Shown piece by piece: positions 4,129 through 19,342 of a DNA stretch of 23,252 bases. The position numbers and the translations under genes were made by a program. Source of the stretch: a virus; IMG/VR virus record IMGVR_UViG_3300017753_000116, positions 1-23,252 of that record. One strand, given 5' to 3'. Each line of letters starts with the position of its first letter. Within the stretch, counting starts at the first letter, position 1. The notes beneath the pieces are model-generated. The model had not been told where the DNA came from and did no database searches. It saw only the letters and a program-made list of their open reading frames with translations.

Positions 4129-4136
4129 TATAAATA
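4129..4136 (+). promoter_or_regulatory. T4-type late promoter box, perfect TATAAATA
   Basis: This is an exact TATAAATA, the canonical T4 late box, in a 50-base intergenic gap and 40 bases before the ATG at 4177. It is followed by AACTAAGACTAAC. It is probably the promoter for the long unit 4177-8388. Confidence 0.8.
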
Positions 4137-6144: not shown

Positions 6145-7113
6145 ATGAAACAACAATCTTTTATTACATCTCATCCTGCTTACGGTCAGAAGCTCTACTT
6201 AGATGCTTGGACCGGAATAAGTGGGATTTTAGATTATGAAGTATCACCAGGACTTGCAAAAGAAAATTTCTTTCAAGACTGGGATTATGATTACATATTA
6301 AATAACCCACCCAAATATTTTTGGCAAAATCAGGTAATTAAGAAAATTCCTGATGATGCTGTGTTTGGTTGTGCTCCATTTGTTTATGGAGATGCACTGA
6401 GCACCACAACATATAATGAGAGTGAAAAGGTTGATATGGTGTTCCTTCCAAGAACTGATTGGAGCACACTTCTTGATGAAACTAAGAAGCATAAAATTAT
6501 AGATGCTTTGAAGGAATATGAATTTGATGAAGATACTTATTACATATCCTTTCCACCCGATTTAAAAATTTGGCAGGATATAATCCCTAAAAATTTATAT
6601 ACAGTTGCCACAACACAACATGATGATCGATGGGGAGATCAAATGATTAGATTGATGCGAAAGGCAAAAACTGTATATTGTCCATTATTTTGTAGCACTG
6701 TGCTATATGCTACTTGGTGTGGTACAAAGACCAAGTTTTATGATGAAAGTAAAATTCATACAAAGTGTCCTGAGTTAATTGAACAAGATGTTCATAAACA
6801 TTATTCTCCTCAGGATAAAAGTGGCGAGTGGAATCGTGGTATGAAATACCTTGAAGAGATTTACTCTGATAATATGTTAAGTGATGAGAAAAAATATTTG
6901 ACATATCAATTTTTGTCGCTAGACTTGGTGGAGAAACCTTGGGACTTATATCAAAAATTGAGATCTCTAAATGAAAGAGTTGAGGAAATTGATTATAAGA
7001 TTCCAGAGTATAATATTAGATCAGATGATTGTTTTCATTCTTTGAAAGAGAAAATCGAACAATTTGAATGTACACCATCGAGAGAGATAGTTGATTTTTT
7101 CTCGAAATTGTGA
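6145..7113 (+). CDS. Putative GT-B-like glycosyltransferase (paralog of 17309), 322 aa
   Basis: No textbook motif proves the function. Residues of about 165-200 (RLMRKAKTVYCPLFCSTVLY then ATWCGTKTKFYD) have the layout of the C-terminal nucleotide-sugar half of GT-B enzymes: a strand, a Ser/Thr-rich turn, a helix, then G-x-x-x-x-FYD. A second block (FGCAPFVYGDAL, 74-85, and VFLPRTDW, 99-106) would lie in the N-terminal half. Both blocks recur in the same order in the 17309 product (LGACPFLYADAL, IFLPKID, FYFPMFTSATMYAYYSG), so the two genes are paralogs. The neighbours are an adhesin and two 2OG oxygenases. A transfer reaction onto tail proteins or host glycans is inferred; a surface-polysaccharide-processing protein without transferase activity is an alternative. 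Confidence 0.5.
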   Translation: MKQQSFITSHPAYGQKLYLDAWTGISGILDYEVSPGLAKENFFQDWDYDYILNNPPKYFWQNQVIKKIPDDAVFGCAPFVYGDALSTTTYNESEKVDMVFLPRTDWSTLLDETKKHKIIDALKEYEFDEDTYYISFPPDLKIWQDIIPKNLYTVATTQHDDRWGDQMIRLMRKAKTVYCPLFCSTVLYATWCGTKTKFYDESKIHTKCPELIEQDVHKHYSPQDKSGEWNRGMKYLEEIYSDNMLSDEKKYLTYQFLSLDLVEKPWDLYQKLRSLNERVEEIDYKIPEYNIRSDDCFHSLKEKIEQFECTPSREIVDFFSKL

Positions 7114-7140
7114 TAGTCTACTGTAACGCTTAAATAAAAA

Positions 7141-7761
7141 ATGGCATATCAAGCTCTTTGGCATTATACTAATGTTCCAACAGACGTGGTTGAAATTATT
7201 GAGAGAGATCTCAGAGAAAATTTTGATCCTCAGATGGCAGATTCCAAACTTCATGGAGATGCATTGAATAAAGATAAAAGAAATTCTAAGAATGCATGGG
7301 TTCCCACTAATCATTGGGTTGGTGGTTTCTTGTGGCATTATATTCAACGCGCCAATCGTGAAAATTTTTTGTATGATTTGAGGTGTATTGATGGCGAATC
7401 AATGCAATATACTCGTTATGATGAAGGTCAATTTTATGGATGGCACAATGATGCAGGATTAGCAACACAATATAAACCTGTAAGCAATGGTAACCGTGAT
7501 GATGGTTTGCACCAAGATTTTGTGAATGAGAATATTGAACTTGTTCGTAAACTATCTTTTGTTCTACAACTTTCTGACCCTGATGACTATGAAGGTGGCA
7601 ATCTTCAATTGCTGAGTGAAGAAGGTTCACCATATTTTGCACCACGTCAACGTGGTACGATTGTATTGTTTGACTCTCGCACACAACATCGAGTTCTTAA
7701 AGTAACAAAAGGAACTCGTAAATCTATTGTTGGGTGGGTCGTAGGACCTCGTTGGAGATAA
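7141..7761 (+). CDS. 2OG-Fe(II) oxygenase, prolyl-4-hydroxylase-like (PKHD/PiuC type), 206 aa
   Basis: The jelly-roll core is clear: YTRYDEGQFYGWHNDAG (90-106) gives the HxD pair H102/D104; LSFVLQLSDPDDYEGGNLQL (138-157) is the conserved double strand; GTIVLFDSRTQHRV (172-185) gives the distal H183; and RKSIVGWV (193-200) gives the 2-oxoglutarate-binding R193. All three iron ligands and the arginine are present, so it should be active. The EGGNLQL signature and length (about 200-225 aa for the family) fit the PKHD-type hydroxylase group. It would hydroxylate an unknown substrate using 2-oxoglutarate and O2. The next gene, also a 2OG enzyme, starts 3 bases after the stop. No good Shine-Dalgarno is visible before the ATG; the sequence there is AATAAAAA. 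Confidence 0.9.
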   Translation: MAYQALWHYTNVPTDVVEIIERDLRENFDPQMADSKLHGDALNKDKRNSKNAWVPTNHWVGGFLWHYIQRANRENFLYDLRCIDGESMQYTRYDEGQFYGWHNDAGLATQYKPVSNGNRDDGLHQDFVNENIELVRKLSFVLQLSDPDDYEGGNLQLLSEEGSPYFAPRQRGTIVLFDSRTQHRVLKVTKGTRKSIVGWVVGPRWR

Positions 7762-7764
7762 ATT

Positions 7765-8388
7765 ATGACAGAATCATGGACTCGCAACGAAGCTTTTGAT
7801 AAGCATGGATTCTTAGTCGTAAGAGATTTATGGAATCCAGAAGAATTGTATAATGAAGTTCCTGCTATCAGAGGGCAACTAAATTATTTTGGTGATCTCT
7901 CTCAGTTTGTACATATAGAAGAAGAGGGACAAGTTTCTGGATCTCTTGCACGTTACTGGTATCCAAAATATCGTGATGCACATACTGGCATTCGTTTTAA
8001 ATTAGAAAAAATTATTGGTAGAAAGTTATACAATACATATTACTACGATAGATTTTATTTTCCAGGACAAGAATTAGAAAGGCATAGAGACCGTCCTGCA
8101 TGTGAAATTTCTGTTAGTGTGCATGTTAGTAGTAATCTTGATTACTATTGGCCATTCAAAATTGAATCTGTTGATGGGGTAGAAAATGAAGCAGAATTAG
8201 ATCCTGGTGATGGTTTAATATATAAAGGGTGTGAGCATACACATTGGAGAGAGCCTCTACAATCTAGACATAATAAAATTTTTAGAAGACTAAAAAGAAA
8301 TGATGATACTTATTATCATCAAATATTTTTTCATTACGTTCTTGCTGACGGCATGTACGCTCACTGTGCATGGGACCGCGCAAGATGA
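7765..8388 (+). CDS. 2OG-Fe(II) oxygenase-like protein, 207 aa
   Basis: An N-terminal EAFDKHGFLVVRDLWNPEEL resembles the opening of phytanoyl-CoA-hydroxylase-type and related oxygenases. The iron site is likely H107/D109 in ELERHRDRPACEISVSVHV, with a distal His in GDGLIYKGCEHTHWREPL (H160 favoured over H158). The closing strand reads YYHQIFFHYVLADG and lacks an obvious RxS arginine at the usual place, so the 2OG anchor is uncertain; R162, two residues after H160, may serve. The protein is co-oriented and nearly contiguous with the 7141 oxygenase, so the two may act on related substrates. Its stop overlaps the next late promoter. Confidence 0.8.
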   Translation: MTESWTRNEAFDKHGFLVVRDLWNPEELYNEVPAIRGQLNYFGDLSQFVHIEEEGQVSGSLARYWYPKYRDAHTGIRFKLEKIIGRKLYNTYYYDRFYFPGQELERHRDRPACEISVSVHVSSNLDYYWPFKIESVDGVENEAELDPGDGLIYKGCEHTHWREPLQSRHNKIFRRLKRNDDTYYHQIFFHYVLADGMYAHCAWDRAR

Positions 8389-8394
8389 TAAATA
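8387..8394 (+). promoter_or_regulatory. T4-type late promoter box GATAAATA with inverted repeat
   Basis: GATAAATA overlaps the upstream TGA stop and lies 20 bases before the ATG at 8415. A perfect 6-base inverted repeat (ATAACT-AAAA-AGTTAT, 8392-8407) overlaps its 3' edge. It heads the largest late unit (8415-14161). Confidence 0.75.
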
Positions 8395-8414
8395 ACTAAA
8401 AAGTTATCATAGAA

Positions 8415-9749
8415 ATGGGATACCTAGGACAAGAAGCTAGTTTTACTGGAACCCAGAATAACCAAAGACTATCAACAACAGCTGCTGGCGGGCAGATTAA
8501 TTTTAGTGTTGGTGGAGGGTACTCAATCAATGCTCTTGATGTATATCGAAATGGTATTAAATTATCAGGTGGACGAGATTTTAGAGCATTAGATGGTGTT
8601 ACTGTAACTCTTCTTTCTCCTGCTAATGATGGTGATATTATTGAATTTGTTACCTTTGAGAATTTTAAAAGGGAAGATGTCATCACTGGTGACGGAGATG
8701 CTACAATTAGAGGTAACGTTACTATCTCTGGTGATCTTGGTATCACAGGCAGTCTCAATGCGACGGTAAGTAATACTGCCACCGCAGGATTTGCCACTGT
8801 CTCTGGTATTTCATCTGCCTTAGGTATTGGTGCAACTGCTGTTGGACTTAATGCCTCTGGTATTATCACTGCCATCAGTTTCAGTGGTTCTGGTGCAAAC
8901 CTCACTGGTATTGCTGCAACTGATGATGTCAGAACTAACAGTTTAGTTGTTGCTGGTGTTTCTACATTTAACAATAATATTGATATGGAGGGCGATATCG
9001 TCTTCGGCACTCAGGGTGATAAATTAATCTTCGGGCCAAGTAATTATCCTGCTTCTGGTGGATCTATTGAGATTAATGTTACTGCATCTGATAAATCTAC
9101 GATTGGAGGAAACTCTGGGGAGTTAAGAATTCATAATACTGAGGCTAGTAACGCCGCTTTTGATTTTAGATGTAGAAATTATTATTTCCTAGACGAAAAT
9201 GCTGATTATTATGGATTGTTCTATAATGGTCAAGTAAGACTGTATCATCCTGGCACTAGTGGTTCAATTGGTGACCAGAAATTTGAAACTGATGCAGGTG
9301 GTGTAAAAATTACTGGTATTGCAACTGCTGATGGTTTCAGTGTAGGTGATAATGAATATATTACTGCTGGTATTGGTTCTGATCTTGTAATTTATCACGA
9401 TGGTTCTGCCTCGTATATTCATGATAACGGCGTAGGTGATCTAAATCTCTGCATGGAGACAGGTAGTAAACTTGTTATTCAAAGTGGCACAAGTGGCAAT
9501 CATATTGCAGAATTTAATCACAATGGTGCCGCAGAACTGTTCCACAATGGATCACAAAAACTTGAAACCGCCACTGGTGGTATTAATGTTGGTGTTGGCA
9601 TCACCATGGATGGCAACGGAATTGCTGTTTCTGGTATTCTTACTTGTAATGGCGTTGCTGTTGGTCAAAATGCCATTGGTGCAAGAACTGTTCAATCCGG
9701 TGGATCACCTTCTGGTGGATCTGACGGAGATATATACTACATCTACTAA
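8415..9749 (+). CDS. Long tail fibre protein, 444 aa
   Basis: The N-terminal domain (1-84) carries LDVYRNGIKL (41-50) and LLSPANDGDIIEFVTFENF, paralogous to the 2487 product. A linker of short repeats follows (NVTISGDLGITGSLNATVSN), then the hallmark SFSGSGANLTGI strand (about 155-167) and VAGVSTFNNNIDMEGDI. The distal half has the classic fibre motifs LYHPG...KFETDAGGVKITG, DLVIYHDGSASYIHDN and LFHNGSQKLETATGGINVG, and ends SGGSPSGGSDGDIYYIY. These repeats occur in many marine T4-like phage fibres and build elongated trimeric shafts. It is followed 12 bases later by a chaperone-like gene and then by a glycine-rich adhesin, the usual fibre-helper-tip order. Confidence 0.85.
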   Translation: MGYLGQEASFTGTQNNQRLSTTAAGGQINFSVGGGYSINALDVYRNGIKLSGGRDFRALDGVTVTLLSPANDGDIIEFVTFENFKREDVITGDGDATIRGNVTISGDLGITGSLNATVSNTATAGFATVSGISSALGIGATAVGLNASGIITAISFSGSGANLTGIAATDDVRTNSLVVAGVSTFNNNIDMEGDIVFGTQGDKLIFGPSNYPASGGSIEINVTASDKSTIGGNSGELRIHNTEASNAAFDFRCRNYYFLDENADYYGLFYNGQVRLYHPGTSGSIGDQKFETDAGGVKITGIATADGFSVGDNEYITAGIGSDLVIYHDGSASYIHDNGVGDLNLCMETGSKLVIQSGTSGNHIAEFNHNGAAELFHNGSQKLETATGGINVGVGITMDGNGIAVSGILTCNGVAVGQNAIGARTVQSGGSPSGGSDGDIYYIY

Positions 9750-9761
9750 GGAAATTAACGC

Positions 9762-10469
9762 ATGACTGCTGGAAGTTGGGTAGAAAATACCGATAAGAGA
9801 TATTGGTTCCCTGATACTGTTCCCACTAAAACAGATGAGTGGAATATTGCTCAGGAGAGAAAAAGATATGTAACTAATTACGGCACAACCAGAACACATC
9901 CACGTTGGTTGTATGATAATGGTGCATTTGTTGATGATGACTATCTTTATCACAATGAAGAGTGGCGATATGTCGCTAATTGGAACGATGTTCCAACATC
10001 TAGCGATACTGAGTTTTATATTAAAAATCCTATTGCAGAATGGACAAAGAGTGGTGATGATAAGACGTATACTATTACTTGGAAGACATATGCTGTTCAA
10101 GAACCAACTATCTCTGACGAAGATACAGTACAATTAAAGGTTCAGAAAGAAGATACTGACTGGGTATATGATCATTCTGCTTTGACTGTGACCAAAGCAT
10201 ACGATATTACTCGTTATAACACTGATGATCTCAATGCTGAGAAATGGGACGTTCTGAGAGGGACACGTGATTTGTTGATGAAGAATACTGATTGGATTAT
10301 CACTCAGGGCACAGAACGTGGAGTTGGTATCTCCACAGCAATGAAGTCATATCGTCAAACATTAAGAGATCTTCCTGGCACGATCTCTGACATCTCAGTA
10401 TATACTAGGGCAGAGATCGCCACAAGAGATTTCTATCCCGAAGAACCTTCCGCACCTTATTTCTATTAA
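9762..10469 (+). CDS. Tail fibre assembly-chaperone-like protein, 235 aa
   Basis: Residues 162-206 read WDVLRGTRDLLMKNTDW ... MKSYRQTLRDLPG, the pattern of the phage tail assembly chaperone (APC) domain: R-x-x-LL-x-x-(S/T)DW, a spacer, then YRQ-x-LRD-x-P. The N-terminal 120 residues are rich in Trp/Tyr/Asp (WFPDTVP, WNIAQERKRYVTNYG, HPRWLYDNG) and resemble a fibre-binding module. Family members help fold or attach tail fibres or are minor tail proteins. The AAGGA ribosome site (9748-9752) overlaps the stop of the long fibre gene, which supports a fibre-chaperone pairing. Its short spacing to the glycine-rich adhesin suggests the three products assemble together. Confidence 0.7.
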   Translation: MTAGSWVENTDKRYWFPDTVPTKTDEWNIAQERKRYVTNYGTTRTHPRWLYDNGAFVDDDYLYHNEEWRYVANWNDVPTSSDTEFYIKNPIAEWTKSGDDKTYTITWKTYAVQEPTISDEDTVQLKVQKEDTDWVYDHSALTVTKAYDITRYNTDDLNAEKWDVLRGTRDLLMKNTDWIITQGTERGVGISTAMKSYRQTLRDLPGTISDISVYTRAEIATRDFYPEEPSAPYFY

Positions 10470-10471
10470 TT

Positions 10472-11350
10472 ATGGCAGATACCGCAGTTAAAGATGGTGG
10501 AAGTTGGAGGACATCTTCCGAAGTCCACATTAAAGATGGTGGAACATGGAGAAGTTCTTCAACTATTCACATTAAAGATGGTGGAACGTGGAGAGAAGTA
10601 TTTTCATCAGGAACTCCTGGCGTGTTTACTGTTCCATCTGGTGTTTCTGGACCTGGTGAGATTGATTTCAACTCATCCGTTTTAAATCTGACTACTCCTG
10701 CAACTCAGTTCAATATGACTGCTCTGGGTGATTTTACTAACCTTAGAATTAGAGCATGGGGTGGTGGTGGACAGCAGGCTCCCCAGTATCCGTCAGCAGC
10801 TGCTGGTGGTTTTGGTGGTGGATATCTTTCTGGTTCCGCAGGTGATGTTCTCACAGTAGCAACAAACTTCGGTGTTGTTGGTCCAGCACCTGGTGGTGGA
10901 GCATATGGCATTTTTGTAAACTCTAAGTCACAAGCAAATGCTAGAATCGTTGCTGGTGGTGGTGGTGCGACAGAAAATGATGATGGTGGTAGAGGTCAGG
11001 TAGCAGGTGCTGGTGGTGGTACATCAGGACAACCTGGTAGTGGTTATCAGAGCACTAGCGGTGGTGGTCCTGGATATACATCTTGGCCCCTACAAGGCGG
11101 TCCTGGTCAGGGTCACGGTGGCGGATCTGGCGGTGGTTCTGGTTATTGGGGTGGTCAAGGTGGTCCTGATATTTGTTGTCTTGCTGCTACTGGTGGCGGT
11201 GGAGGAAGCACATATATTCACCCATCAGTAGGAACACCTCAAAATCAAGGTGGGAATAGAGGAACTGTTGGCAATCCTAGTGACCCAGTAAGAGGCCCTC
11301 AGGGTAATATTCAATCGCCAGGTAGAATTTATATTAACGGACCCGCATGA
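10472..11350 (+). CDS. Glycine-rich tail adhesin with N-terminal KDGGTWR repeats, 292 aa
   Basis: The N-terminus has a 14-residue unit used two and a half times: KDGGSWRTSSEVHI, KDGGTWRSSSTIHI, KDGGTWREV (starting at residues 7, 21 and 35). Similar DGGTWR units occur in phage fibre proteins and may form an attachment beta-structure. Residues of about 60-100 are an ordered strand region (FNMTALGDFTNLRIRAWGGG), and from there on the protein is glycine-rich (GGGGATENDDGGRG, GGGSGGGSGYWGGQGG, GGGGGSTYIHPS), closing GRIYINGPA. It follows a long fibre and an assembly-chaperone-like gene and overlaps the next oxygenase gene by ATGA. It is likely the receptor-binding tip of the 8415 fibre, by analogy with polyglycine adhesins of T4-like phages. 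Confidence 0.78.
   Translation: MADTAVKDGGSWRTSSEVHIKDGGTWRSSSTIHIKDGGTWREVFSSGTPGVFTVPSGVSGPGEIDFNSSVLNLTTPATQFNMTALGDFTNLRIRAWGGGGQQAPQYPSAAAGGFGGGYLSGSAGDVLTVATNFGVVGPAPGGGAYGIFVNSKSQANARIVAGGGGATENDDGGRGQVAGAGGGTSGQPGSGYQSTSGGGPGYTSWPLQGGPGQGHGGGSGGGSGYWGGQGGPDICCLAATGGGGGSTYIHPSVGTPQNQGGNRGTVGNPSDPVRGPQGNIQSPGRIYINGPA
10490..10594 (+). repeat. 42-base tandem repeat encoding KDGG(S/T)WR units
   Basis: Two complete 42-base units (10490-10531, 10532-10573) and a 21-base partial third begin AAAGATGGTGGAA. They encode the KDGG(S/T)WR repeats of the adhesin N-terminus. Near identity in the core and drift elsewhere indicate in-frame duplication. Confidence 0.85.
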
Positions 11351-11886
11351 TTTTTGAAAAACATAATGCACTTTCACAAGCAGATTGTGAAAATTTGATT
11401 AGATTATTTGAAAGACATAAAGCATATCATCATCAGGGTCAGACAATTGGGGGGTTAAATCCATCTGTAAAAGATTGTACAGAGGTCTTATTCACCCCAG
11501 AATACTATCAAATGAATCCTCTTCTTGAAGCAGTGCAGGAGGGTTTAGTTGAGTACGAAAAGAGATATCCTTTTTTAAAGACTATGAGTAGATATGGACA
11601 GGTTGAAAATATTTCATTTAAACGCTATAATGCTAATCAGGCATATCATGGATTGCATTGTGAGAGGTCATCTCTCAAAACATGTGCTAGAATGTTGGTG
11701 TGGATGTTTTACTTGAACACAGTTCATGATGGTGGAGAAACTTTCTTTGCTCATCAAGATCAAAAGATAACAGCAACACAGGGAAAACTTGTTATCTGGC
11801 CCTCAGACTGGACACATGCACACAAAGGACTAGTCTCACCTACTGAGACCAAATATATTACTTCTAGTTGGTTAAGTTTCTTATGA
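11347..11886 (+). CDS. 2OG-Fe(II) oxygenase-like, HxE variant (paralog of 16342), 179 aa
   Basis: This is a prolyl-hydroxylase-like jelly-roll. YHGLHCERSSLKTCARMLVW (100-119) gives H104 and, two residues on, E106, where most relatives have Asp; MFYLNTVHDGGETFF (120-134) is the conserved strand pair; KLVIWPSDWTHAHKG (147-161) gives the distal His (H157, or H159); TKYITSSW (168-175) puts Lys169 where Arg usually binds 2-oxoglutarate. The 16342 product has the same HCE, WTH and TKYI features, so the variation is shared, not damage. The gene overlaps the glycine-rich adhesin stop by ATGA, as expected for translational coupling, and starts a run of five oxygenase-like genes. The substrate is unknown; the adhesin is an attractive candidate. 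Confidence 0.82.
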   Translation: MIFEKHNALSQADCENLIRLFERHKAYHHQGQTIGGLNPSVKDCTEVLFTPEYYQMNPLLEAVQEGLVEYEKRYPFLKTMSRYGQVENISFKRYNANQAYHGLHCERSSLKTCARMLVWMFYLNTVHDGGETFFAHQDQKITATQGKLVIWPSDWTHAHKGLVSPTETKYITSSWLSFL

Positions 11887-12398
11887 TTACTGTTATTGAT
11901 AACATATTAAGTAATAGAGAGAATCAAAATCTTTATGACTTCGTGAGTAGTGATGATTTTGTTTGGCATAAGATTGATGACTATAAGAAACAAAAACAAA
12001 AAGTTAAGAGGATGTCTTTTGGCAATTTAATTAGACAACCTAAACTTGGGGAAATCATGGATGAAGATCCCATGATCAGTTTTTTGACTAAGAGAGTCAA
12101 GGAGAGAAGAATTCCAGATACAGTAAATTTGTATAAGGTTACTGTTAATTGTATTAAACCACATGAACATTTTGAATATCATACTGATGAATGGGGTAGC
12201 ACAGTGATATTTTATATCAATCCAATATGGAAATGGCACTGGGGTTCTGGAACTACGTTTAAGAGTGGTAGAACTGTGAGACCAAAACCAGGCAGAGCTG
12301 TTATTTTTAATGGAAAATTGCCACATAAGATTTTACCACCAACACCATTCATGAATGATTTTGGTAGATTGTCAATCGCATTACAATATAATCCATGA
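11883..12398 (+). CDS. 2OG-Fe(II) oxygenase-like, 171 aa
   Basis: The ATG at 11883 overlaps the previous stop (ATGA) and is preferred to an upstream in-frame ATG at 11868, because the same coupling recurs in this run. Motifs: PHEHFEYHTDEWG (93-105) gives H100/D102; VIFYINPIWKWHWGSGTTF is the strand pair with an odd aromatic-rich loop; KPGRAVIFNGKLPHKI gives H148; DFGRLSIALQYN gives R162. The complete HxD...H...R set predicts an active enzyme. Length is on the short side for the superfamily. The 3' end overlaps the next oxygenase gene. Confidence 0.85.
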   Translation: MITVIDNILSNRENQNLYDFVSSDDFVWHKIDDYKKQKQKVKRMSFGNLIRQPKLGEIMDEDPMISFLTKRVKERRIPDTVNLYKVTVNCIKPHEHFEYHTDEWGSTVIFYINPIWKWHWGSGTTFKSGRTVRPKPGRAVIFNGKLPHKILPPTPFMNDFGRLSIALQYNP

Positions 12399-12964
12399 TA
12401 TTTTTTGAAAAAGAAAATGCTGTACCTGATGATGTCATGAGACAAATTAATCATCATGTGCTTACAAATGCAAACTTTCCTTTTTATTTTCGTCCGACAT
12501 ATACTACCAAAAACTTTCCATTTTTTAGTCATACATTGATGCCAAGAATTGAATTAGAAGATGAAACCCCAAGGACATCAGAATATTTTCCTTTCTGGAA
12601 TGATATTGCAGTGAGATTTGGATATGAGAATGGTATCAACATCACCAAGATGATGCGAGCAAATGTAAATGCAACCATTCATCATCCAGTTCCATTTTCT
12701 GAACCACATGTAGATTACACTGAGAATCATTATGTGGTTATAATATATCTCAATGATTGTGATGGTGATACGATCATATTTGATAAAACATATGATACTG
12801 GACCCACATATTTGTCCGTTGAAGATGGACTAGAATTGGGTATCGTAAAAAAGGTAACACCAAAGGCAGGAAAGATATTACTATTTGATGGTAAGTATTT
12901 TCATACCAATGAGTTTCCATCTCCTGGTCAGTTTAGATTTATCTGTGCTTTCTTATGTTCTTAA
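12395..12964 (+). CDS. 2OG-Fe(II) oxygenase-like, 189 aa
   Basis: The start overlaps the preceding stop (ATGA). Motifs: FSEPHVDYTENHYVVIIYLN (101-120) gives H105/D107; CDGDTIIFDKTYD follows; TPKAGKILLFDGKYFHTNEF (155-174) gives H170; GQFRFICAFLC gives R181. All metal and co-substrate positions are present. The sequence resembles, at low level, the 11883 product, so the two may be old duplicates. It is the third of five overlapping oxygenase genes in the 8387 late unit. Its target is unknown. Confidence 0.85.
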   Translation: MIFFEKENAVPDDVMRQINHHVLTNANFPFYFRPTYTTKNFPFFSHTLMPRIELEDETPRTSEYFPFWNDIAVRFGYENGINITKMMRANVNATIHHPVPFSEPHVDYTENHYVVIIYLNDCDGDTIIFDKTYDTGPTYLSVEDGLELGIVKKVTPKAGKILLFDGKYFHTNEFPSPGQFRFICAFLCS

Positions 12965-13539
12965 CATTTCCATGTCCAATTCATACCATACATCTCAATA
13001 TACCTAATATTGATGAGTTGGTTCAATATGCACGCCAAGAGAGTAAAATAAGTGAGGGTGTGAAGAAATCAAATGCCGGTGGTTGGCAATCCTTTGATGA
13101 TTATCATGGTGTTGATAATCCTATCAGTAAAGTAATACATTCATATCTACAAGAATATTTTAATAATAGAGAAATTTTTAGTAAAAATTCGTCTATGAAG
13201 ATGACTAGTATGTGGTTTAATATTAACAATCCCGGAGATTATAATCACTCTCATAATCATCCTGGATGTGATTTGTCTGGTGTTTTATGGTTAAAGGTTC
13301 CGAAAGATAGTGGTAATATTGTTTTTGAATCTCCCAATAGTTTTACACAATCTAGATTGTTGGGAGCATACTCTCAAAAATTTAAAGACGAACTTACATT
13401 ACATGACTGGTTCTACATGCAACCACAGGTAGGTCTTTTGATATTATTTCCATCGCACTTAAATCACTCTGTAACTAAAAATAATTCTGATGAAGATAGA
13501 ATTTCAGTTGCTTTTAATGTGAGTGTGTATCATGAGTGA
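12955..13539 (+). CDS. Putative 2OG-Fe(II) oxygenase, TIGR02466/PF13759-like, 194 aa
   Basis: The pattern SMWFNINNPGDYNHSHNHPG then SGVLWLKVPKDSGNIVFESP (85-127), later PQVGLLILFPSHLNHSV (157-173) and DRISVAFNVSV (181-191), matches the family with W-x-N, H-x-HPG, SGV-x-Y, G-x-IxFxxP, FPSxLxHxV and RxSxxFN in that order. The proximal ligands lie in HSHNH (H98-H102) and the distal ligand is H171; R182 is the 2OG arginine. The family is annotated as putative 2OG-Fe(II) oxygenase; no member is characterised well enough here to name a substrate. It overlaps the previous gene by 10 bases and the next by 8. Confidence 0.82.
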   Translation: MFLTFPCPIHTIHLNIPNIDELVQYARQESKISEGVKKSNAGGWQSFDDYHGVDNPISKVIHSYLQEYFNNREIFSKNSSMKMTSMWFNINNPGDYNHSHNHPGCDLSGVLWLKVPKDSGNIVFESPNSFTQSRLLGAYSQKFKDELTLHDWFYMQPQVGLLILFPSHLNHSVTKNNSDEDRISVAFNVSVYHE

Positions 13540-14161
13540 TCTTATTCCTATTTTTGCTACACCTCTGATGATTGAAGATGTAAATCATCTGATCACACCA
13601 GAGATAAAAAATTATATAAAAAAATTAAATTATGAACGTGTGCATATTGGCACGGGTGATTGGTCATCAGATGAAGATAGAAATATTCTTCAAACGGAGA
13701 TGTTCTCTGATATAAAAGAGAATGTTCTTAAATCAGTCCAAAAACTATCAAAAGATGTATATCTGATTGATGATGATATTGAATTTGTTATTATCTCATC
13801 ATGGGTGTTGAGGCATGGATATGGACATGAATGTGTCATGCATAATCATACCGGATCACTTTATAGTGGTGTCCTATATTTGGACGCGCCAGAAAGATGT
13901 GGGGATATTAGATTCCATGAACCACATGCATTAGGATCTTCTCATGCATATCATCAAGTTTCTATACCATTTAAGCAAAGTAGATACAATGCTTTTAATG
14001 CTCCTCACTATAATGTGCCAGCAAAGACTGGTACATTGTTGACATTTAGTTCTGGACTATTACACTCTGTACCACCTAATATGTCACATGAACATCGATA
14101 CTCATTATCATTTAACGTGTTGCCAAAACAGATGGTTGATATTAAAGAGATCACTGTCTGA
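13532..14161 (+). CDS. Putative 2OG-Fe(II) oxygenase, TIGR02466/PF13759-like, 209 aa
   Basis: The ATG at 13532, overlapping the previous stop by 8 bases, is preferred; a GTG at 13523 would add three residues. It opens IPIFATPLMIEDV, the usual start of this family. SSWVLRHGYGHECVMHNHTG then SLYSGVLYLDAP (89-120) holds the proximal HNH (H104/H106), GDIRFHEPH follows, and GTLLTFSSGLLHSVPPN with EHRYSLSFNVLP gives H178 and R189. It is a tandem paralog of the 12955 product. It ends at the next late promoter, closing the five-oxygenase run. Confidence 0.85.
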   Translation: MSDLIPIFATPLMIEDVNHLITPEIKNYIKKLNYERVHIGTGDWSSDEDRNILQTEMFSDIKENVLKSVQKLSKDVYLIDDDIEFVIISSWVLRHGYGHECVMHNHTGSLYSGVLYLDAPERCGDIRFHEPHALGSSHAYHQVSIPFKQSRYNAFNAPHYNVPAKTGTLLTFSSGLLHSVPPNMSHEHRYSLSFNVLPKQMVDIKEITV

Positions 14162-14167
14162 TAAATA
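14160..14167 (+). promoter_or_regulatory. T4-type late promoter box GATAAATA
   Basis: GATAAATA overlaps the stop of the last oxygenase gene, 21 bases before the ATG at 14189. An inverted repeat (TAATT-AGAA-AATTA, 14166-14179) overlaps its 3' edge, as at 8387. It drives fibre, adhesin and oxygenase genes 14189-16905. Confidence 0.75.
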
Positions 14168-14188
14168 ATTAGAAAATTAGTGTCAGCA

Positions 14189-15484
14189 ATGGCGATAACA
14201 AGAGCAACTAATCTGGCAGATATTGGTTCGGGTATTGGCACCAATCCATCTCAAACCATTGATATTGGTTCTGGTATTCAGATGGATGGTTCATCCACTG
14301 GTATCATTACTGCAACCACATTTAGTGGAACTGCAACAAATGCAGGTACGGCAGTAAATTTGGGTATTGGTGCAACTGGATATGGTCTTGTTTTAAGTGG
14401 AAATTTAACTGGTATTGCTGCCACATTTACTGGTAACGTCACAATTGGTGGCACACTAACATATGATGATGTAACTAATATTGATTCAGTTGGATTGATT
14501 ACTGCAAGAAATGGTCTTCAAGTTCTTGCTGGTATCACTACTATTTCGGGTCAGTCTAATTTAGCGAATGTTAATGTTTCTGCCGCAGCATCTTTTGGTG
14601 GAAATGTATCAATCGCAGATTCAATCTTCCACACTGGTGACACTAATACTTCCATTAGGTTCCCTGCTGCTGATACATTTACAGTAGAAACTGCCAGTGT
14701 TGAAGCAACTCGTGTAGATTCTAGTCAACGATTATTAGTTGGCAAAACATCGAGCACAAATTGTAATATTGAGGGGATTGGTTATGATAACCTAGTTCAA
14801 ATTGAAGGTGCAGATGTTGGTGAGGGATTGCAAGTTAGTAATGATGCCGAAACTGCGAGAATAAATATCACATGGAAAGAAACTGAGTCTAGTTTAAGTG
14901 ATGGAGATAAATTAGGGCATCTATCATTTGGAGCAGGAGTTACTAATGCTGTTGAGAGAGCAAGAATAGAATGTAACGCACAGACCACCAACGCCAATGG
15001 GCGTGGAGGACAATTAACGTTCATGACTTGTGCTGATGGTGATTACATTCCATACGAGCGGTTGCGTATAGCTAATAGTGGTGCAGCAATCTTTAAGGGT
15101 GGACTTGCAGAGAAATATGAAAATGCGGCAACAACTCTTGGAGCACAGACAGCCAATCCATTATCAGATGGTAATGTAATTCTATTCTCTGGTAATGAAT
15201 CAGGAAGCCTTACAATCAACTTCACTGGTATTCATGGCACAACAATATCAAATGGTGAAACTGTTTCCTTTACTGTTATTATTACACCAAATAACTCTGG
15301 ATATATTGGAACTGTTCAGGTTGATGGTGTAGCCCCTGCCACAGCAGTATATTGGTCTGGTGGTGCGCCAACATCGGGTGGTGCTTCTGGAAGAGACGTT
15401 TATACATTCCAAATTCTAAAAGTTGGAACTGGTACAAATGCATACCAAATATATGGTGCTGTAACCAACTATACTAACGCTTGA
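14189..15484 (+). CDS. Long tail fibre protein, 431 aa
   Basis: The ATG at 14189 (MAITRATNLADIGSG) is preferred to a GTG nine bases upstream, because the same start context appears in the 19821 fibre. The shaft repeats include STGIITATTFSGTATNAGTA, FTGNVTIGGTLTYDDVTNID and SVGLITARNGLQVLAGITT. The middle shows SSQRLLVGKTSS and DKLGHLSFGAG...ERARIECNAQ and YERLRIANSGAAIFKGG, the LLVGkT/eRmRI-x-x-x-G pattern common to phage fibres. The last 120 residues (GAQTANPLSDGNVILFSGNE to GAVTNYTNA) form a separate domain that may bind the adhesin. The glycine-rich adhesin follows 14 bases later. Confidence 0.85.
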   Translation: MAITRATNLADIGSGIGTNPSQTIDIGSGIQMDGSSTGIITATTFSGTATNAGTAVNLGIGATGYGLVLSGNLTGIAATFTGNVTIGGTLTYDDVTNIDSVGLITARNGLQVLAGITTISGQSNLANVNVSAAASFGGNVSIADSIFHTGDTNTSIRFPAADTFTVETASVEATRVDSSQRLLVGKTSSTNCNIEGIGYDNLVQIEGADVGEGLQVSNDAETARINITWKETESSLSDGDKLGHLSFGAGVTNAVERARIECNAQTTNANGRGGQLTFMTCADGDYIPYERLRIANSGAAIFKGGLAEKYENAATTLGAQTANPLSDGNVILFSGNESGSLTINFTGIHGTTISNGETVSFTVIITPNNSGYIGTVQVDGVAPATAVYWSGGAPTSGGASGRDVYTFQILKVGTGTNAYQIYGAVTNYTNA

Positions 15485-15492
15485 TAGGAGGT
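15485..15492 (+). promoter_or_regulatory. Strong Shine-Dalgarno TAGGAGGT
   Basis: TAGGAGGT lies 6 bases before the ATG at 15499 and is a near-perfect match to the 16S anti-SD. Other ribosome sites in this window are AAGGA or weaker, so this adhesin may be translated at an unusually high rate relative to its fibre. Confidence 0.8.
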
Positions 15493-15498
15493 AGATAA

Positions 15499-16323
15499 AT
15501 GTTTAACTGGAATAAAAAAGAAAAACCCCTGCTTGGATTAACTGGTACAGGTGGAGGACTTGGTTATTTGTCAGGTGGCGGTGCTGCTGCATTCACCGCG
15601 ACTGGTGGCACTATTGCAACGCCTGGTGATGGATATACTTATCATGTCTTTGATTATCCCACATCGGATAATTTTGAAGTAACCGGAGGAACTGCTTCGA
15701 TTGAAGTTCTTCTTCAAGGCGCAGGCGGAGGCGGCGGCGGTGGTGCTGGTGATGGTGGTAATGGTCCTGGTGGCGGCGGTGGCGGCGGTGGTGGGACATT
15801 AGTCGGCACTATTGCAGATTTGGGAACAGGAACATATCCTATACAAGCTGGTAATGGTGGCAGCGGTGGTTCTGGTGGTCCCGGTAGTAATGGAAGTCTT
15901 GGTGGATATTCTAGATTTACTTTACCCTTTGGATATTTACAAGGTGGTGCTGGTGATGGTGGGGGATCTCCTGGTGCTGGTGAGGGTGGCGTCAACCAGG
16001 ATCCTGCTACCCCCAATCCAACTGTAACAATTAATAACAACCACACCGGTGGGACCGGTACTGGAAGAAGTCCCGCTTTTAGTGGACGCGGTTCTGGCGG
16101 AGCGGGTGGAGCTCCACAACCTTCTGGTAACTGGTGGAAACCATATATGGCACCAGGTGCCGGTAGAGATACAGGTGGACACAATGGATTCGGCGGACCC
16201 TCTGCTGATGGTAATAATTATGGCGGCGGCGGTGGCGGCGGTGGTGGTTCCTACGATGGTGGCGGCGGTAGTCCTGGTGGAGCTGGCGGTAAAGGTAGAG
16301 TTGTGGTAAGATACCCAGTATAG
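15499..16323 (+). CDS. Glycine-rich tail adhesin-like protein, 274 aa
   Basis: A short charged N-terminus (MFNWNKKEKPLLGLTG) leads to an ordered strand region (YTYHVFDYPTSDNFEVTGGT then ASIEVLLQGAGGG), then long glycine runs (GGGGGGGAGDGG, GGGGGGGGG), a LGTGTYPIQAGNGGSGGSGG repeat, and a close in GRVVVRYPV. The FxVxGGTAxIxVLLxGAGGGGG order is the usual layout of the bacterial/phage glycine-rich domain. Variable, proline- and aromatic-bearing loops (GNWWKPYMAPGAGRD) between glycine blocks are candidates for receptor contacts. It sits between a long fibre and a 2OG oxygenase, the same order as at 8415-11886. Long antisense ORFs here are composition artefacts. Confidence 0.78.
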   Translation: MFNWNKKEKPLLGLTGTGGGLGYLSGGGAAAFTATGGTIATPGDGYTYHVFDYPTSDNFEVTGGTASIEVLLQGAGGGGGGGAGDGGNGPGGGGGGGGGTLVGTIADLGTGTYPIQAGNGGSGGSGGPGSNGSLGGYSRFTLPFGYLQGGAGDGGGSPGAGEGGVNQDPATPNPTVTINNNHTGGTGTGRSPAFSGRGSGGAGGAPQPSGNWWKPYMAPGAGRDTGGHNGFGGPSADGNNYGGGGGGGGGSYDGGGGSPGGAGGKGRVVVRYPV

Positions 16324-16341
16324 TGACATTTTTATTCCTTC

Positions 16342-16905
16342 ATGGACTTTATTGAAAAATATGATAAAGTATTATCAAGAGAAAAGTGTGAACAATTAAT
16401 TTATATTTTTGAATCACATTCACCACTTCATGAAGTGGGTTTGGCGGGTGGTTTGGTAGATTTAAATAAGAAGAAAAGCACGAGTTTAGATTTTACTTTT
16501 GATCGTTCTAAAATGCAATCAAAAGATATGTTCTTTGCTGATGCATTGGGTACACCCTTGTTAAATGGAATAGAAAGATATAAAAAGAAGCATAAGTATT
16601 TGAATGATGTGACACAGTGGAGTCTTAATGTTGACTATCACATGCAAAGGTTTGATAGGGATGATGGATATTTTGCCACTCATTGTGAACAAGAAGGGCA
16701 CACCTCTAAACGTATTATTGCATGGATGTTCTACTTAAATGATGCAAAATGTGGCACTAAGTTCTACTATCAAAATAAAACTTTTAAGGCAAAACAGGGG
16801 AGAATGTTAATTTGGCCCGCAGCGTGGACACACATGCACTCTGGTATAATCCCCAATTTAAACACAAAATACATCATTACTGGTTGGTACAGTTTTGTTT
16901 CTTGA
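16342..16905 (+). CDS. 2OG-Fe(II) oxygenase-like, HxE variant (paralog of 11347), 187 aa
   Basis: GYFATHCEQEGHTSKRIIAW (109-128) gives H114 and E116; MFYLNDAKCGTKFYY is the strand pair; RMLIWPAAWTHMHSG (154-168) gives H164 (or H166); TKYIITGW (175-182) has Lys176 at the usual Arg site. The N-terminal halves also match in layout (SREKCEQLIYIFESH here, SQADCENLIRLFERH in 11347). Both genes directly follow a glycine-rich adhesin gene, which is the strongest contextual hint that adhesin modification is the role. The stop codon lies inside the -35 box of a host-type promoter. Confidence 0.82.
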   Translation: MDFIEKYDKVLSREKCEQLIYIFESHSPLHEVGLAGGLVDLNKKKSTSLDFTFDRSKMQSKDMFFADALGTPLLNGIERYKKKHKYLNDVTQWSLNVDYHMQRFDRDDGYFATHCEQEGHTSKRIIAWMFYLNDAKCGTKFYYQNKTFKAKQGRMLIWPAAWTHMHSGIIPNLNTKYIITGWYSFVS

Positions 16906-16930
16906 CATTCTAATCAAACCGATATATACT
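16902..16930 (+). promoter_or_regulatory. Host sigma70-type promoter, TTGACA-N17-TATACT
   Basis: TTGACA (16902-16907) and TATACT (16925-16930) are separated by 17 bases, a near-perfect vegetative promoter. It overlaps the stop of the late oxygenase gene and precedes the sugar cassette 16953-19793 by about 20 bases. Such promoters are used for early transcription in T4-like cyanophages. Confidence 0.75.
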
Positions 16931-16952
16931 AGACACATCATTGTTGGTGAAT

Positions 16953-17312
16953 ATGAAGACGCTGTGCAACGAGTTAGAAGAGAGCGTATATCTTTTTCCA
17001 GACTTTATCCCCATTCGTTTTGATGATGATATGGGACAGTGGTGGATTAAAGATGAGATGATTTCTGAGTTGCCACACTACTATGTGTTGCATGAAAATG
17101 TAGAAGAACCAAAGAATTGGTATCAGAAAAAATATAAGTTTAATCCAGAAGATGGGTGGCGTTTCAATCCTGATTGGGACGGTGAAGATATGCAACTACA
17201 AAAGAATTTGAATAGAAAATTGAATAAGATGTTGAAAGTATTCTATCGTAAGAAGATCTTAACGAAGAAAGAAATGCTTGCCCTGTTCAACACAGACGAA
17301 AAGACATTATGA
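16953..17312 (+). CDS. Unknown protein at head of sugar cassette, 119 aa
   Basis: The ATG at 16953 is preferred to an in-frame TTG at 16941, which lies at the likely transcription start. The protein is rich in Trp, Tyr, Lys and acidic residues. Residues 1-60 hold an FPDFIPIRFDDDMGQWW segment and 45-70 NWYQKKYKFNPEDGWRF; the last 40 residues are a basic, probably helical tail (NLNRKLNKMLKVFYRKKIL). No transmembrane segment or catalytic signature is seen. It overlaps the glycosyltransferase-like gene by ATGA, so it may work with that protein. I do not recognise the family. Confidence 0.7.
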   Translation: MKTLCNELEESVYLFPDFIPIRFDDDMGQWWIKDEMISELPHYYVLHENVEEPKNWYQKKYKFNPEDGWRFNPDWDGEDMQLQKNLNRKLNKMLKVFYRKKILTKKEMLALFNTDEKTL

Positions 17313-18304
17313 GTCGTTTTGGAACAAAAGAGATCCTTAATTATTGGGCAGGAACAGATCAATACCTAGATTATAACTTTATTCCTGGTGTCCAGACAGA
17401 AACAATGGGTCGGCAGGAATTTTATGCTGACTTCATGTGCTCCACTGTATATGCATGGAGTGAATATCTTCCCGACAAACTTGTTAAGAATGATAAGTAT
17501 GTTCATCTAGGTGCATGTCCATTTCTATATGCTGATGCACTTGTGCCAAGACAAGAAAGACAGGGAACATGTATCTTTCTACCTAAGATTGATGTTGCAA
17601 CCGGTGTTGATTTCAATCAGGTAAATTATGATGCCATTAGAACATTAGTAGAAAATGCACCTAGACCTGTTATTGCAATGGCACCAGCAGAACAGAAGCA
17701 AGACTGGTACTATGCCTTTGCATATGAGGGATTGAAAGACTTACATATCATGAGTATCTTTGATGATCCTGGTGTAGAAGAGTGGCAGTTGGGTCTTGCT
17801 GTTGCAATGGGAAGATTTCAGGCATTTTACTTTCCAATGTTCACATCTGCGACTATGTACGCATATTATAGTGGTGCTCATGTTCGTTACTATGATGCAG
17901 GGGATATTTACTATGAGACCACAACAAGTTCAGTTAATAGCTATGCTAAGTTAGAAGATATTCATAGTAAGTTTGAGAACTTATGGATAGACAGGTGTGA
18001 TGATCGCAGTGTCATCATGAGTATGATTAAGTTGTTCCTGTGTCCACATAAGAGACAAACACCTGATGAACTATTAGAATCGTTGTATATGCTCAATTTT
18101 AGATCAAATCTGTTGACAGAAAAACATGGTAGACATTGGGATGATTGGTTCTATGGTAACTCTACTGGAAGAATCATAACTGATGCTGTGCCATTGGAAT
18201 TGTATTCCAAAGATAAAGCATTGGATAAACTGAATGCAAAGTGCAAAATCTATGATACAATAGAGTATCATCCCTCTGTAAGAAAGTTAATCTCTGAGTT
18301 ATGA
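17309..18304 (+). CDS. Putative GT-B-like glycosyltransferase (paralog of 6145), 331 aa
   Basis: LGACPFLYADAL (67-78) and IFLPKID (89-95) match FGCAPFVYGDAL and VFLPRTD of the 6145 product, and FYFPMFTSATMYAYYSG then AHVRYYDAGD (173-199) matches VYCPLFCSTVLYATWCG then TKTKFYD. The second block has the arrangement of the GT-B C-terminal nucleotide-sugar-binding helix (S/T-rich turn, helix, G, hydrophobic, YD). It sits directly before a CMP-KDO-synthetase-like gene with ATGA overlap, which favours a sugar-transfer or sugar-processing role. No acidic DxD typical of GT-A enzymes is evident at a matching place. Acceptor and donor are unknown. Confidence 0.5.
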   Translation: MSRFGTKEILNYWAGTDQYLDYNFIPGVQTETMGRQEFYADFMCSTVYAWSEYLPDKLVKNDKYVHLGACPFLYADALVPRQERQGTCIFLPKIDVATGVDFNQVNYDAIRTLVENAPRPVIAMAPAEQKQDWYYAFAYEGLKDLHIMSIFDDPGVEEWQLGLAVAMGRFQAFYFPMFTSATMYAYYSGAHVRYYDAGDIYYETTTSSVNSYAKLEDIHSKFENLWIDRCDDRSVIMSMIKLFLCPHKRQTPDELLESLYMLNFRSNLLTEKHGRHWDDWFYGNSTGRIITDAVPLELYSKDKALDKLNAKCKIYDTIEYHPSVRKLISEL

Positions 18305-19008
18305 CTGTTACATGTGTTATCCCGTCAAGATTAGGATCTACAAGATTTCCTGGTAAACCATTGTATAAAATCAATGGAAAAGAAATGATTCTGCATGTCA
18401 TTGATCGTGCAATGGAATGTAAGTATATTGATAATATTGTTGTCGCAACACCTGATGAAGAAATTTATAACGTAGTAAAACAATATAACTGTGATGCCAT
18501 AATTACAGACTCTTGTTCTACATGCACTCATAGAGTATCTGATGCTGTTCGATTACTAGAATATAAACCACGTTGGGTTGTTAATCTCCAAGGAGATGAA
18601 CCTGTGATGAATCCAGAATCAATTGATGATATGATTGGTCATGCAATGACACATCAGACTCAGATGTTGCAAGCAATCTATAATATTAATCAGACTGATG
18701 TTGATGATAAAGATTGTGTCAAAGCAGTTATCAATAATGATAATGTAATTTGGATCACTCGTACACCAGAACCAGAGTGGATTATTAATCGACATATCTT
18801 CGGAATCTCTGGACTATATGTCTATGACTATGATACTATTGCAAATTTCAGATCATATGATTTGAAAATGGTTGAGGATTGTGCTAGTCTTGACACCCTA
18901 GGTTTCATTGGTAAAATACCTGTGACTCCATTTAATATCGGCATGAGAACACATGCTGTTGATCGCCCATCAGACATTGAGATTGTTAAACATGAGATAC
19001 GTCGTTGA
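18301..19008 (+). CDS. kdsB: CMP-KDO synthetase-like cytidylyltransferase, 235 aa
   Basis: IPSRLGSTRFPGKPL (7-21) is the CTP-binding loop of 3-deoxy-manno-octulosonate cytidylyltransferases; NLQGDEP (95-101) holds the metal-binding Asp99; GISGLYVYDYDTI (168-180) and DRPSDIE (221-227) match the C-terminal signature. The enzyme would activate KDO or a related acid sugar as CMP-sugar for LPS-type glycans. Unlike cellular KdsB, the GTDR segment is replaced by CTHR (75-78), and the L-x-x-LExxExLEQLR stretch is shortened, so substrate use may differ. Overlaps both neighbours (ATGA upstream, 17 bases downstream). Not the usual host gene order, so acquisition by the phage is likely. Confidence 0.85.
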   Translation: MTVTCVIPSRLGSTRFPGKPLYKINGKEMILHVIDRAMECKYIDNIVVATPDEEIYNVVKQYNCDAIITDSCSTCTHRVSDAVRLLEYKPRWVVNLQGDEPVMNPESIDDMIGHAMTHQTQMLQAIYNINQTDVDDKDCVKAVINNDNVIWITRTPEPEWIINRHIFGISGLYVYDYDTIANFRSYDLKMVEDCASLDTLGFIGKIPVTPFNIGMRTHAVDRPSDIEIVKHEIRR

Positions 19009-19342
19009 CATTGACGGTACAATTTGTGAGCATTTTAATGGTCCAAACTTTGGATCAGGTGAAGTGTATTATGATCGAATTGAAAAGATGAATAAATTAT
19101 ATGATGAAGGTCATGAAATTGTATACATGACTGCACGAGGAATGGGTCCAAAGAATAATCCAGAAGGAAACTTTGATGAGGAATCAATGAATCGTGCAAG
19201 ACAAAAGTATGGTAGAATGACAGAACAACAGTTGGATGATTGGGGATGCAGGTATACTAAACTGTTTCTCGGAAAATATTCTGGCGACATTTACATTGAC
19301 GACAAAGGTATTCACAGTGACACTTTCTTCAACGCTAATTGA
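18992..19342 (+). CDS. HAD-family phosphatase, polysaccharide-biosynthesis type, 116 aa
   Basis: The ATG at 18992 is favoured because it starts exactly at MRYVVDIDGTIC, where the nucleophile motif DxDGT gives Asp6 and Asp8. Motif II is MTARG (46-50, Thr47), Lys90 or Lys95 in TKLFLGK is the motif III lysine, and IYIDDKG (100-106) is motif IV. The NKLYDEGHEIVYMTARG and QLDDWGCRYTKLFLGK pattern is that of small HAD proteins found in capsule and LPS gene clusters. A phosphosugar is the likely substrate, inferred from the KdsB-like and SIS neighbours. It overlaps both. There is no visible cap domain, in line with its small size. Confidence 0.85.
   Translation: MRYVVDIDGTICEHFNGPNFGSGEVYYDRIEKMNKLYDEGHEIVYMTARGMGPKNNPEGNFDEESMNRARQKYGRMTEQQLDDWGCRYTKLFLGKYSGDIYIDDKGIHSDTFFNAN
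19305..19308 (+). promoter_or_regulatory. Ribosome binding site deciding the GTG start at 19317
   Basis: AAGG (inside ACAAAGGTA) lies 8 bases before GTG 19317. It is the only reasonable ribosome site near the start of the SIS-domain frame, whose ATG at 19236 would give a long overlap without family similarity. Confidence 0.55.

Follow-up and report, generated by a model that had tools for sequence, protein, structure and literature searches.

Eight 2-oxoglutarate-Fe(II) oxygenase-type genes among the tail-fibre and glycine-rich adhesin genes of a T4-like cyanophage fragment

Genes of the tail-fibre and adhesin region

The stretch of DNA analysed here (the window) is the complete 23,252-base IMG/VR virus record IMGVR_UViG_3300017753_000116, which carries eight genes of the 2-oxoglutarate-Fe(II) (2OG-Fe(II)) oxygenase type, named here by their start coordinates (7141, 7765, 11347, 11883, 12395, 12955, 13532 and 16342) and interleaved with genes for tail fibres and glycine-rich adhesin-like proteins. 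The arrangement suggests, without proving, that in these viruses the tail adhesins, or sugars attached to them, are hydroxylated by phage-encoded enzymes. Oxygenase arrays are a known feature of cyanophages; to this we add a strong linkage to adhesin genes, a prolyl 4-hydroxylase (P4H)-like subfamily with an HxE motif located behind adhesin genes, and two families that appear to be misnamed.

The best DNA matches of the fragment are Synechococcus T4-like phages (S-SM2, and the uvsW-type helicases of several relatives), and a helicase gene at 22078 closes it. By sequence, it represents the tail-fibre/adhesin region of a T4-like, Kyanoviridae-type cyanomyovirus with S-SM2 and Bellamy as relatives. 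A near-identical contig, IMGVR 3300017760_000066, holds the identical gene set at 99-100%. The open reading frames (ORFs) at all eight oxygenase coordinates are real and intact; those of 11883 and 13532 could also start at 11868 and 13523, the positions retained being the better starts.

Oxygenase subfamilies and metal sites

Pfam and PHROG profiles place seven of the eight proteins among 2OG-Fe(II) oxygenases or in families containing such enzymes, 7765 being the exception. Iterated profile searches over about 200 related loci, followed by profile clustering, defined five subfamilies: A (7141), B (7765), C (11347 and 16342), D (11883 and 12395, both with a strong match to PHROG 274) and F (12955 and 13532). 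A first-pass annotation of the DNA letters had recognised jelly-roll iron-site motifs in all eight genes (HxD, HxE or HNH, a distal His, usually an Arg) and divided them into at least four subtypes, and both observations proved right.

The conservation of the metal sites was judged over tens to more than 100 distinct homologues per family and rechecked on separate alignments for B, C and F. The sites read H102xD104..H183..R193 in A, H107xD109..H160 in B (conserved at 98%), H104xE106..H159..K169 in C, with Lys rather than Arg, HxD..H..R in D and HxH..H..R in F; HxE and Lys are shared throughout family C, and HxH throughout family F. The HxD/E...H iron site is thus found in A, B, C and D. Subfamily F has HxH..H in its place, as have its PDB relatives 3bvc and 2rg4; its sequence puts it under PF13759/TIGR02466, 'putative 2OG-Fe(II) oxygenase', and it is not counted here as an established classical member. 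The HxH..H of this family (12955-14161) might form a three-histidine iron site within an otherwise 2OG-type family. A putative 2OG ligand about 10 residues past the distal His fits R193 of A, K169 of C and the Arg of D and F; in B, R162 sits just 2 residues past H160. The double-stranded beta-helix fold is indicated by AlphaFold2 (AF2) models and Foldseek for B and C, by solved homologues for F, through PF13640 for A and by profile only for D. The ratio of nonsynonymous to synonymous substitution (dN/dS), 0.08-0.45 for all eight genes against diverged relatives, is a rough value because synonymous sites are near saturation in several of them, and it points to purifying selection on the whole set. 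All eight genes are predicted to encode catalytic proteins of the 2OG-Fe(II) oxygenase type.

Subfamily C has the clearest relatives among characterised enzymes. Its profile matches solved P4Hs from bacteria (3itq, 2e-14), the chlorella virus PBCV-1 (a collagen hydroxylase, 5c5t, 6e-11) and Chlamydomonas (8e-7), and, weakly, the procollagen lysyl hydroxylase LH3. The AF2 model of 11347 (pLDDT 96) finds the PBCV-1 enzyme vCPH as its best Foldseek match (E 3.8e-12, TM 0.75), followed by other P4Hs and PHD2. The HxD iron motif of P4H is absent from 11347 and 16342, HxE being invariant in 38 aligned sequences, and the subfamily is therefore classed by its profile and predicted fold as P4H-like, not as P4H. 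Such a resemblance would fit a protein substrate. Protein 7141 (A) matches an NCBIfam model for Fe2+-dependent dioxygenases at 1.2e-15, below the cut-off of that model, and PiuC in the PDB at about 3e-4. The F profile matches 3bvc and 2rg4 at about 4e-21, both of them solved, uncharacterised bacterial proteins. For 11883 (D), a match to the NCBIfam FlmC-type 2OG oxygenase (5.3e-13) falls below the cut-off, and the FlmC of the flagellin paper is a cytidylyltransferase; nothing was inferred from that name.

Two probably misnamed families

Orthologues of 7765 are annotated as ferrochelatase in S-SM2 (SSM2_036), Bellamy (gp247) and other records, S-RSM4 (SRSM4_132) among them, and ferrochelatase is also the PHROG name of the family, the names spanning PHROG 2954/3531 and T4-GC615. 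No Pfam family matches 7765 at E<=1, and 40 members of subfamily B gave no NCBIfam match. An AF2 model built from 40 sequences (pLDDT 88) retrieved with Foldseek the P. putida prolyl hydroxylase (P4H), AsqJ, AlkB and PHD2 (E down to 1.8e-8, TM about 0.55); the 50 best PDB fold matches include no ferrochelatase. In a viral structure library, the named matches that follow its own family (one member of which is called ferrochelatase) are mostly prolyl 4-hydroxylase or 2OG proteins. With oxygenase folds but no ferrochelatase among those 50 matches, the database name of 7765 is most probably wrong, and the 'ferrochelatase' of cyanophages and pelagiphages is, on the strength of this model, most probably a 2OG-Fe(II) oxygenase; since the TM-scores are moderate, B would be a divergent member. 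Phage ferrochelatase has been reported always to have a 2OG oxygenase next to it (PMC9599517).

The second name concerns relatives of 11883 and 12395. Four proteins called 'DNA endonuclease V' or 'denV', from S-SM1, S-RSM4, Bellamy and a pelagiphage, were tested: each is recognised by the oxygenase profile of the D family (7e-16 to 1e-20), and none by an endonuclease profile such as that of pyrimidine-dimer glycosylases. The endonuclease identity was rejected for these relatives, which belong to PHROG 274 and include S-SM1 SSM1_054 (denV), S-RSM4 SRSM4_138 and L321:10017-10499. Both widespread names thus appear to cover oxygenases. This touches published claims on phage haem and iron metabolism and on DNA repair, and the haem and iron inferences need revisiting.

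Late promoters and operon organisation

Late promoters of cyanophages carry NATAAATA (PMC2984593), and exact copies of the core ATAAATA were scored. The window has seven, all on the + strand, of which six lie 19-47 bp before a gene start (1219, 3169, 4177, 8415, 14180 and 19812; binomial P for the placement about 2e-6), and no oxygenase gene has one in front of it. The number of cores in the window is not above chance, so that the information lies in the placement only; sigma-70 promoters and terminators in the region do not exceed the numbers found in shuffled sequence. The placement of the cores, none of them before an oxygenase, leads to three transcription units as drawn in Table 1. In the first (4177-8388) the adhesin gene 4585 is followed by A and B; in the second (8415-14161) a fibre gene, the APC protein gene and adhesin gene 10472 are followed by C, D, D, F and F; in the third (14180-19793) a fibre gene and adhesin gene 15499 are followed by C and then by sugar-type genes.

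The same organisation is seen in 147 de-replicated contigs, where the core precedes 72 of 102 fibre genes and 323 of 1615 other genes, 16 of 213 glycine-rich genes and just 14 of 459 oxygenase genes, and where the median gap to the preceding gene is about zero for C, D and F. As cores stand before fibre genes and rarely before oxygenases, we take the latter to be internal cistrons of the fibre/adhesin operons. In 61-73% of cases the stretch from the nearest upstream promoter to the oxygenase contains a glycine-rich gene; for other genes the figure is 23%. From the promoter motif and position we infer that the oxygenase genes are expressed late, and the core placement and operon layout bear out the location in late adhesin and fibre units described at first pass.

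Table 1. Promoter cores and genes of the three late units in the window.
Coordinates	Strand	Feature	Basis and remarks
4130..4136	+	Late-promoter core (ATAAATA), heads unit 4177-8388	Exact match, 47 bp before gene 4177
4585..5640	+	Glycine-rich adhesin-like protein	27% Gly, 7% Pro; unit shared with 7141 and 7765
6145..7113	+	Protein without Pfam family, paralogue of 17309-18304	BLASTP 1e-12 between both
7141..7761	+	Subfamily A 2OG-Fe(II) oxygenase, PKHD/PiuC-like	PF13640 7.7e-17; conserved HxD/H/R
7765..8388	+	Subfamily B 2OG-Fe(II) oxygenase fold (predicted), database name 'ferrochelatase'	PHROG 2954 3e-58; no Pfam family; AF2/Foldseek
8388..8394	+	Late-promoter core, heads unit 8415-14161	27 bp before gene 8415
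8415..9749	+	Repeat-rich tail fibre-like protein	Repeats read directly in sequence; heads late unit
9762..10469	+	Tail-fibre associated protein, tail assembly chaperone (APC) domain	PF16778 1.2e-7
10472..11350	+	Glycine-rich adhesin-like protein	26% Gly; 4-bp overlap with start of 11347
11347..11886	+	Subfamily C prolyl-4-hydroxylase-like oxygenase (HxE..H..K)	PF13640 3.8e-8; profile and AF2 fold
11883..12398	+	Subfamily D 2OG-Fe(II) oxygenase; database relatives named 'DNA endonuclease V'	PF13640 3.3e-6; conserved HxD/H/R
12395..12964	+	Subfamily D 2OG-Fe(II) oxygenase	PHROG 274 4e-30; PF13640 weak (0.003); D-family profile
12955..13539	+	Subfamily F oxygenase, HxH..H..R site	PF13759 2.8e-26; TIGR02466 6.8e-28, above cut-off
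13532..14161	+	Subfamily F oxygenase	PF13759 1.8e-18; TIGR02466 3e-22, above cut-off
14161..14167	+	Late-promoter core, heads unit 14180-19793	19 bp before gene 14180
14180..15484	+	Repeat-rich tail fibre-like protein	Repeats read directly; part matches S-SM2 tail-fibre gene at DNA level
15499..16323	+	Glycine-rich adhesin-like protein	PF21722 Gly_rich_2 2.6e-7; 36% Gly
16342..16905	+	Subfamily C prolyl-4-hydroxylase-like oxygenase, paralogue of 11347	PF13640 1.4e-8; profile shared with 11347
17309..19793	+	6145-like protein (17309), CMP-sugar-type cytidylyltransferase (18301), HAD-like protein (18953), gene 19236	Late unit of 14180; 18301 PF02348 7.2e-31; 18953 HAD_PNKP 0.005, below cut-off; 19236 no Pfam match

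Other genes of these units deserve mention. The paralogues at 6145-7113 and 17309-18304 encode proteins of about 325 amino acids of no known family, one per unit, in two of the adhesin units. The cytidylyltransferase, the HAD-like protein and the further gene at 18301-19793 share the late unit of adhesin 15499 and could serve glycan supply. Upstream, at 3169-4126, four short fibre-repeat-like ORFs (76-82 amino acids) stand in a row, perhaps as small fibre tips or remnants.

Linkage to glycine-rich adhesin genes

Nine complete isolate genomes (S-SM2, Sf-CH11, Bellamy, S-SSM5, S-RSM4, S-WAM1, S-SCSM1, S-SM1 and S-PM2) provided a measure of this linkage. They place 55 of 112 oxygenase genes within eight genes of a glycine-rich gene, against 14.9 ± 6.4 under circular label shifts, which preserve gene clustering (0 of 2000 shifts as high, p<=0.0005). 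Among the 114 families present in at least five of the nine genomes, A, B, C and D rank 1-4 for closeness (within six genes) to a glycine-rich gene and F ranks 15th; the fractions are 0.62 for A, 0.62 for B, 0.38 for C and 0.33 for D, against a family mean of 0.05, and A and B remain in the top three at glycine thresholds of 0.28-0.38. The densest oxygenase cluster includes a glycine-rich gene, or lies close to one, in eight of the nine genomes. The co-occurrence that the first-pass annotation had raised for cyanophages is thus a general cyanomyovirus feature. The de-replicated contigs give higher figures, a glycine-rich gene standing within five genes, usually upstream, of 107 of 122 A genes and 105 of 115 B genes; since that set was partly fetched via A and B, the complete genomes are the cleaner test.

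Adhesin-near members also cluster on protein trees. In the C tree, 10 changes of the adhesin-near state are counted, where shuffled labels give 16.3 (0 of 200 as low); in the D tree the figures are 9 and 12.3 (3 of 200 as low). Between about 9.6 and 12.4 kb (9582-12398), over the fibre end or tip, the APC protein, the adhesin and the C and D oxygenases, the identity to contig 3300031519 (L006) is 82-100%, whereas both flanks are at about 70% or lower, as expected if fibre tip, adhesin and two oxygenases had been exchanged together between otherwise diverged phages.

Possible roles of the oxygenases

The best-supported single explanation, to which we give somewhat less than an even chance, is that the adhesins are the substrate. 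In its favour stand the linkage to glycine-rich genes, the placement of the promoter cores, the P4H-like character of C and the PKHD-like one of A, the exchange-like block, the clustering on the C tree and a related cassette in a pelagiphage. The eight oxygenases would be co-transcribed late with the tail-fibre and glycine-rich adhesin genes. Acting during tail assembly or earlier, they would hydroxylate freshly synthesised adhesins, or residues to which other groups are attached afterwards. The P4H-like proteins 11347 and 16342, both encoded immediately after a glycine-rich gene, might act on peptidyl proline or a similar residue, and the other subtypes on other residues or on attached groups, so that the host-contact surface would be stabilised or chemically varied. 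Proline makes up 7.1% of glycine-rich proteins against 3.6% of others. A broader proposition, tentative and rather unlikely in our judgement, is that marine T4-like phages and some pelagiphages run a dedicated late-stage module for post-translational modification, in which paralogous oxygenases (P4H-like HxE, HxH-site) hydroxylate glycine-rich tail adhesins and are exchanged with them between phages.

Several observations weigh against adhesin hydroxylation. Members of types C, D and F also adjoin uvsX, gp41 and mazG, or stand by CP12/cpeT, and those near replication genes probably do other work; a C-like gene lies among early-type small hypothetical genes in a Rhizobium phage, and the HTVC008M cassette and the structural genes on either side of it are on opposite strands. 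The linkage concerns glycine-rich genes, fibre-repeat genes alone showing no association with oxygenases in the complete genomes. At a lax glycine threshold of 0.25 the subfamily ranks drop to 6-37, because many other proteins pass it, and the main cluster of S-SCSM1, the sole exception of the nine genomes, is not near a glycine-rich gene. Proline is not enriched beside glycine (GP ratio 0.63), GP and GPG being below composition expectation in 247 glycine-rich proteins, and no modified residue has been reported. A collagen-type substrate motif was accordingly rejected and collagen-like specificity is not claimed. Of the prolyl/lysyl-hydroxylase type to which the first-pass annotation pointed, one subtype, C, has the profile and predicted fold but not the HxD motif. 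The S-TIM4 evolution experiment (PMC6224464) was discarded as support: the mutated '2OG' ORF23 is by CP12/cpeT/gp5, outside the adhesin cluster, and is not particle-associated.

A serious rival, though on balance unlikely, is a tailoring cluster whose oxygenases work together with the products of halogenase, carbamoyltransferase, sulfotransferase and CMP-sugar genes, either to modify a capsular sugar or to produce a small molecule, the proximity to adhesins reflecting an insertion hotspot or a glycan that decorates the adhesin. Cyanophage clusters that combine a carbamoyltransferase and a halogenase with 2OG oxygenases and HAD phosphatases have been proposed to tailor glycans or metabolites (PMC7824862), and these facts, too, speak against a single role at the virion: a Trp halogenase or carbamoyltransferase adjoins the oxygenases in isolates, and a sulfotransferase in 11 and a halogenase in 8 of 115 contigs with A and B stand within several genes (L037:9792-11312 and L184:9178-9984 are examples of Trp halogenase and sulfotransferase loci). 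The window itself has the cytidylyltransferase 18301. Yet only a minority of A-B cassettes have such enzymes nearby, the nearest relatives of subfamily C are protein hydroxylases, and it is with glycine-rich structural genes that the linkage is strongest. A looser form of the hotspot idea, which we hold to be quite improbable, makes the oxygenases accessory genes of a variable region with no functional tie to adhesins. The region from the fibre genes to uvsW does vary among relatives, and as a hotspot for variable genes it could partly account for the proximity through insertion sites, a further point against adhesin hydroxylation; but this would leave unexplained the enrichment rank above all other shared families, the clustering of context on the trees, the exchange-like block and dN/dS values well below 1.

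Action on the host, by hydroxylation of its proteins (EF-Tu or ribosome type) or by control of its metabolism (2-oxoglutarate drawdown, NtcA signalling), with the late position arising by chance, appears improbable. It draws on the Foldseek matches to the P. putida P4H, whose structure was solved in complex with EF-Tu, and on the 2OG/NtcA hypothesis of Sullivan et al. 2010 (PMC3037559), but it predicts neither adhesin linkage nor late operon position, and 2OG consumption by itself would hardly call for numerous diverged paralogues in each genome, maintained by purifying selection. DNA repair or nucleobase modification of the AlkB/TET type, proposed earlier (PMC3037559; PMC9146016), could account for members by uvsX/gp41 and for AlkB among the fold matches of B. 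It is very improbable: the adhesin-linked sets lie away from replication genes, the supposed repair genes annotated within them ('DNA endonuclease V', 'denV') are themselves oxygenase-like, and subfamilies C and A fit protein-hydroxylase families better.

Of the reading first proposed, the structural half is confirmed; hydroxylation of fibres or adhesins stays a hypothesis, for families that also stand by replication genes or have halogenase, carbamoyltransferase or sulfotransferase neighbours in sister phages. The general idea is not entirely new, as a metagenome study tied viral P4H to collagen-like tail fibres and called its viral use cryptic (PMC9301287); in 2022 the viral function of 2OG oxygenases was described as not specifically investigated (PMC9602691). 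These enzymes are among the most numerous gene families of cyanomyoviruses. Were adhesin hydroxylation true, it would add a new layer to the chemistry of phage host recognition, and a module shared across these phages would mean that host range evolves through altered chemistry of the tail tip in addition to altered sequence.

Comparison with known systems

Related arrangements are found in other phages. S-RSM4 has several oxygenase genes in a row between genes for fibre, glycine-rich and neck proteins, and pelagiphage 023Pt_psg01, which belongs to another phage group, has a related cassette flanked by structural genes and tail-fibre genes (PMC9599517). The 2OG-Fe(II) oxygenase arrays of cyanomyoviruses are known (24 genes in S-SCSM1, 10 in S-CREM1, 9 in S-SZBM1; T4-GC 412, 155, 101, 240, 180 and 615) and consist of the same families, S-SM2 and Bellamy having the order fibre/adhesin, A, 'ferrochelatase' B, F and further tail genes. 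The literature, however, reads them as auxiliary metabolic, nitrogen or DNA-repair genes, and neither the adhesin linkage nor the misnaming of B and D was found stated in the published accounts of cyanophage arrays examined.

The clusters of the jumbo-phage review (PMC7824862) likewise combine 2OG oxygenases with HAD-type phosphatases, and sister phages have related neighbours, but the window is without halogenase and carbamoyltransferase and its oxygenases are interleaved with adhesin genes. Among single enzymes, 7141 shares HxD..H..R and sequence similarity with the PKHD-type hydroxylase PiuC/YbiX, while falling far under the curated cut-offs of those families and standing in another genomic context. 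The structures 2rg4 and 3bvc of TIGR02466/PF13759, a family whose cut-off 12955 and 13532 exceed, have the HxH motif in common with them. The prolyl 4-hydroxylase of PBCV-1 (vCPH, PDB 5c5t) is the best fold match of C and shares with it a Lys as putative 2OG ligand; it differs in having HxD where the phage subfamily has an invariant HxE, in an identity of 19% and in its host, a eukaryotic alga.

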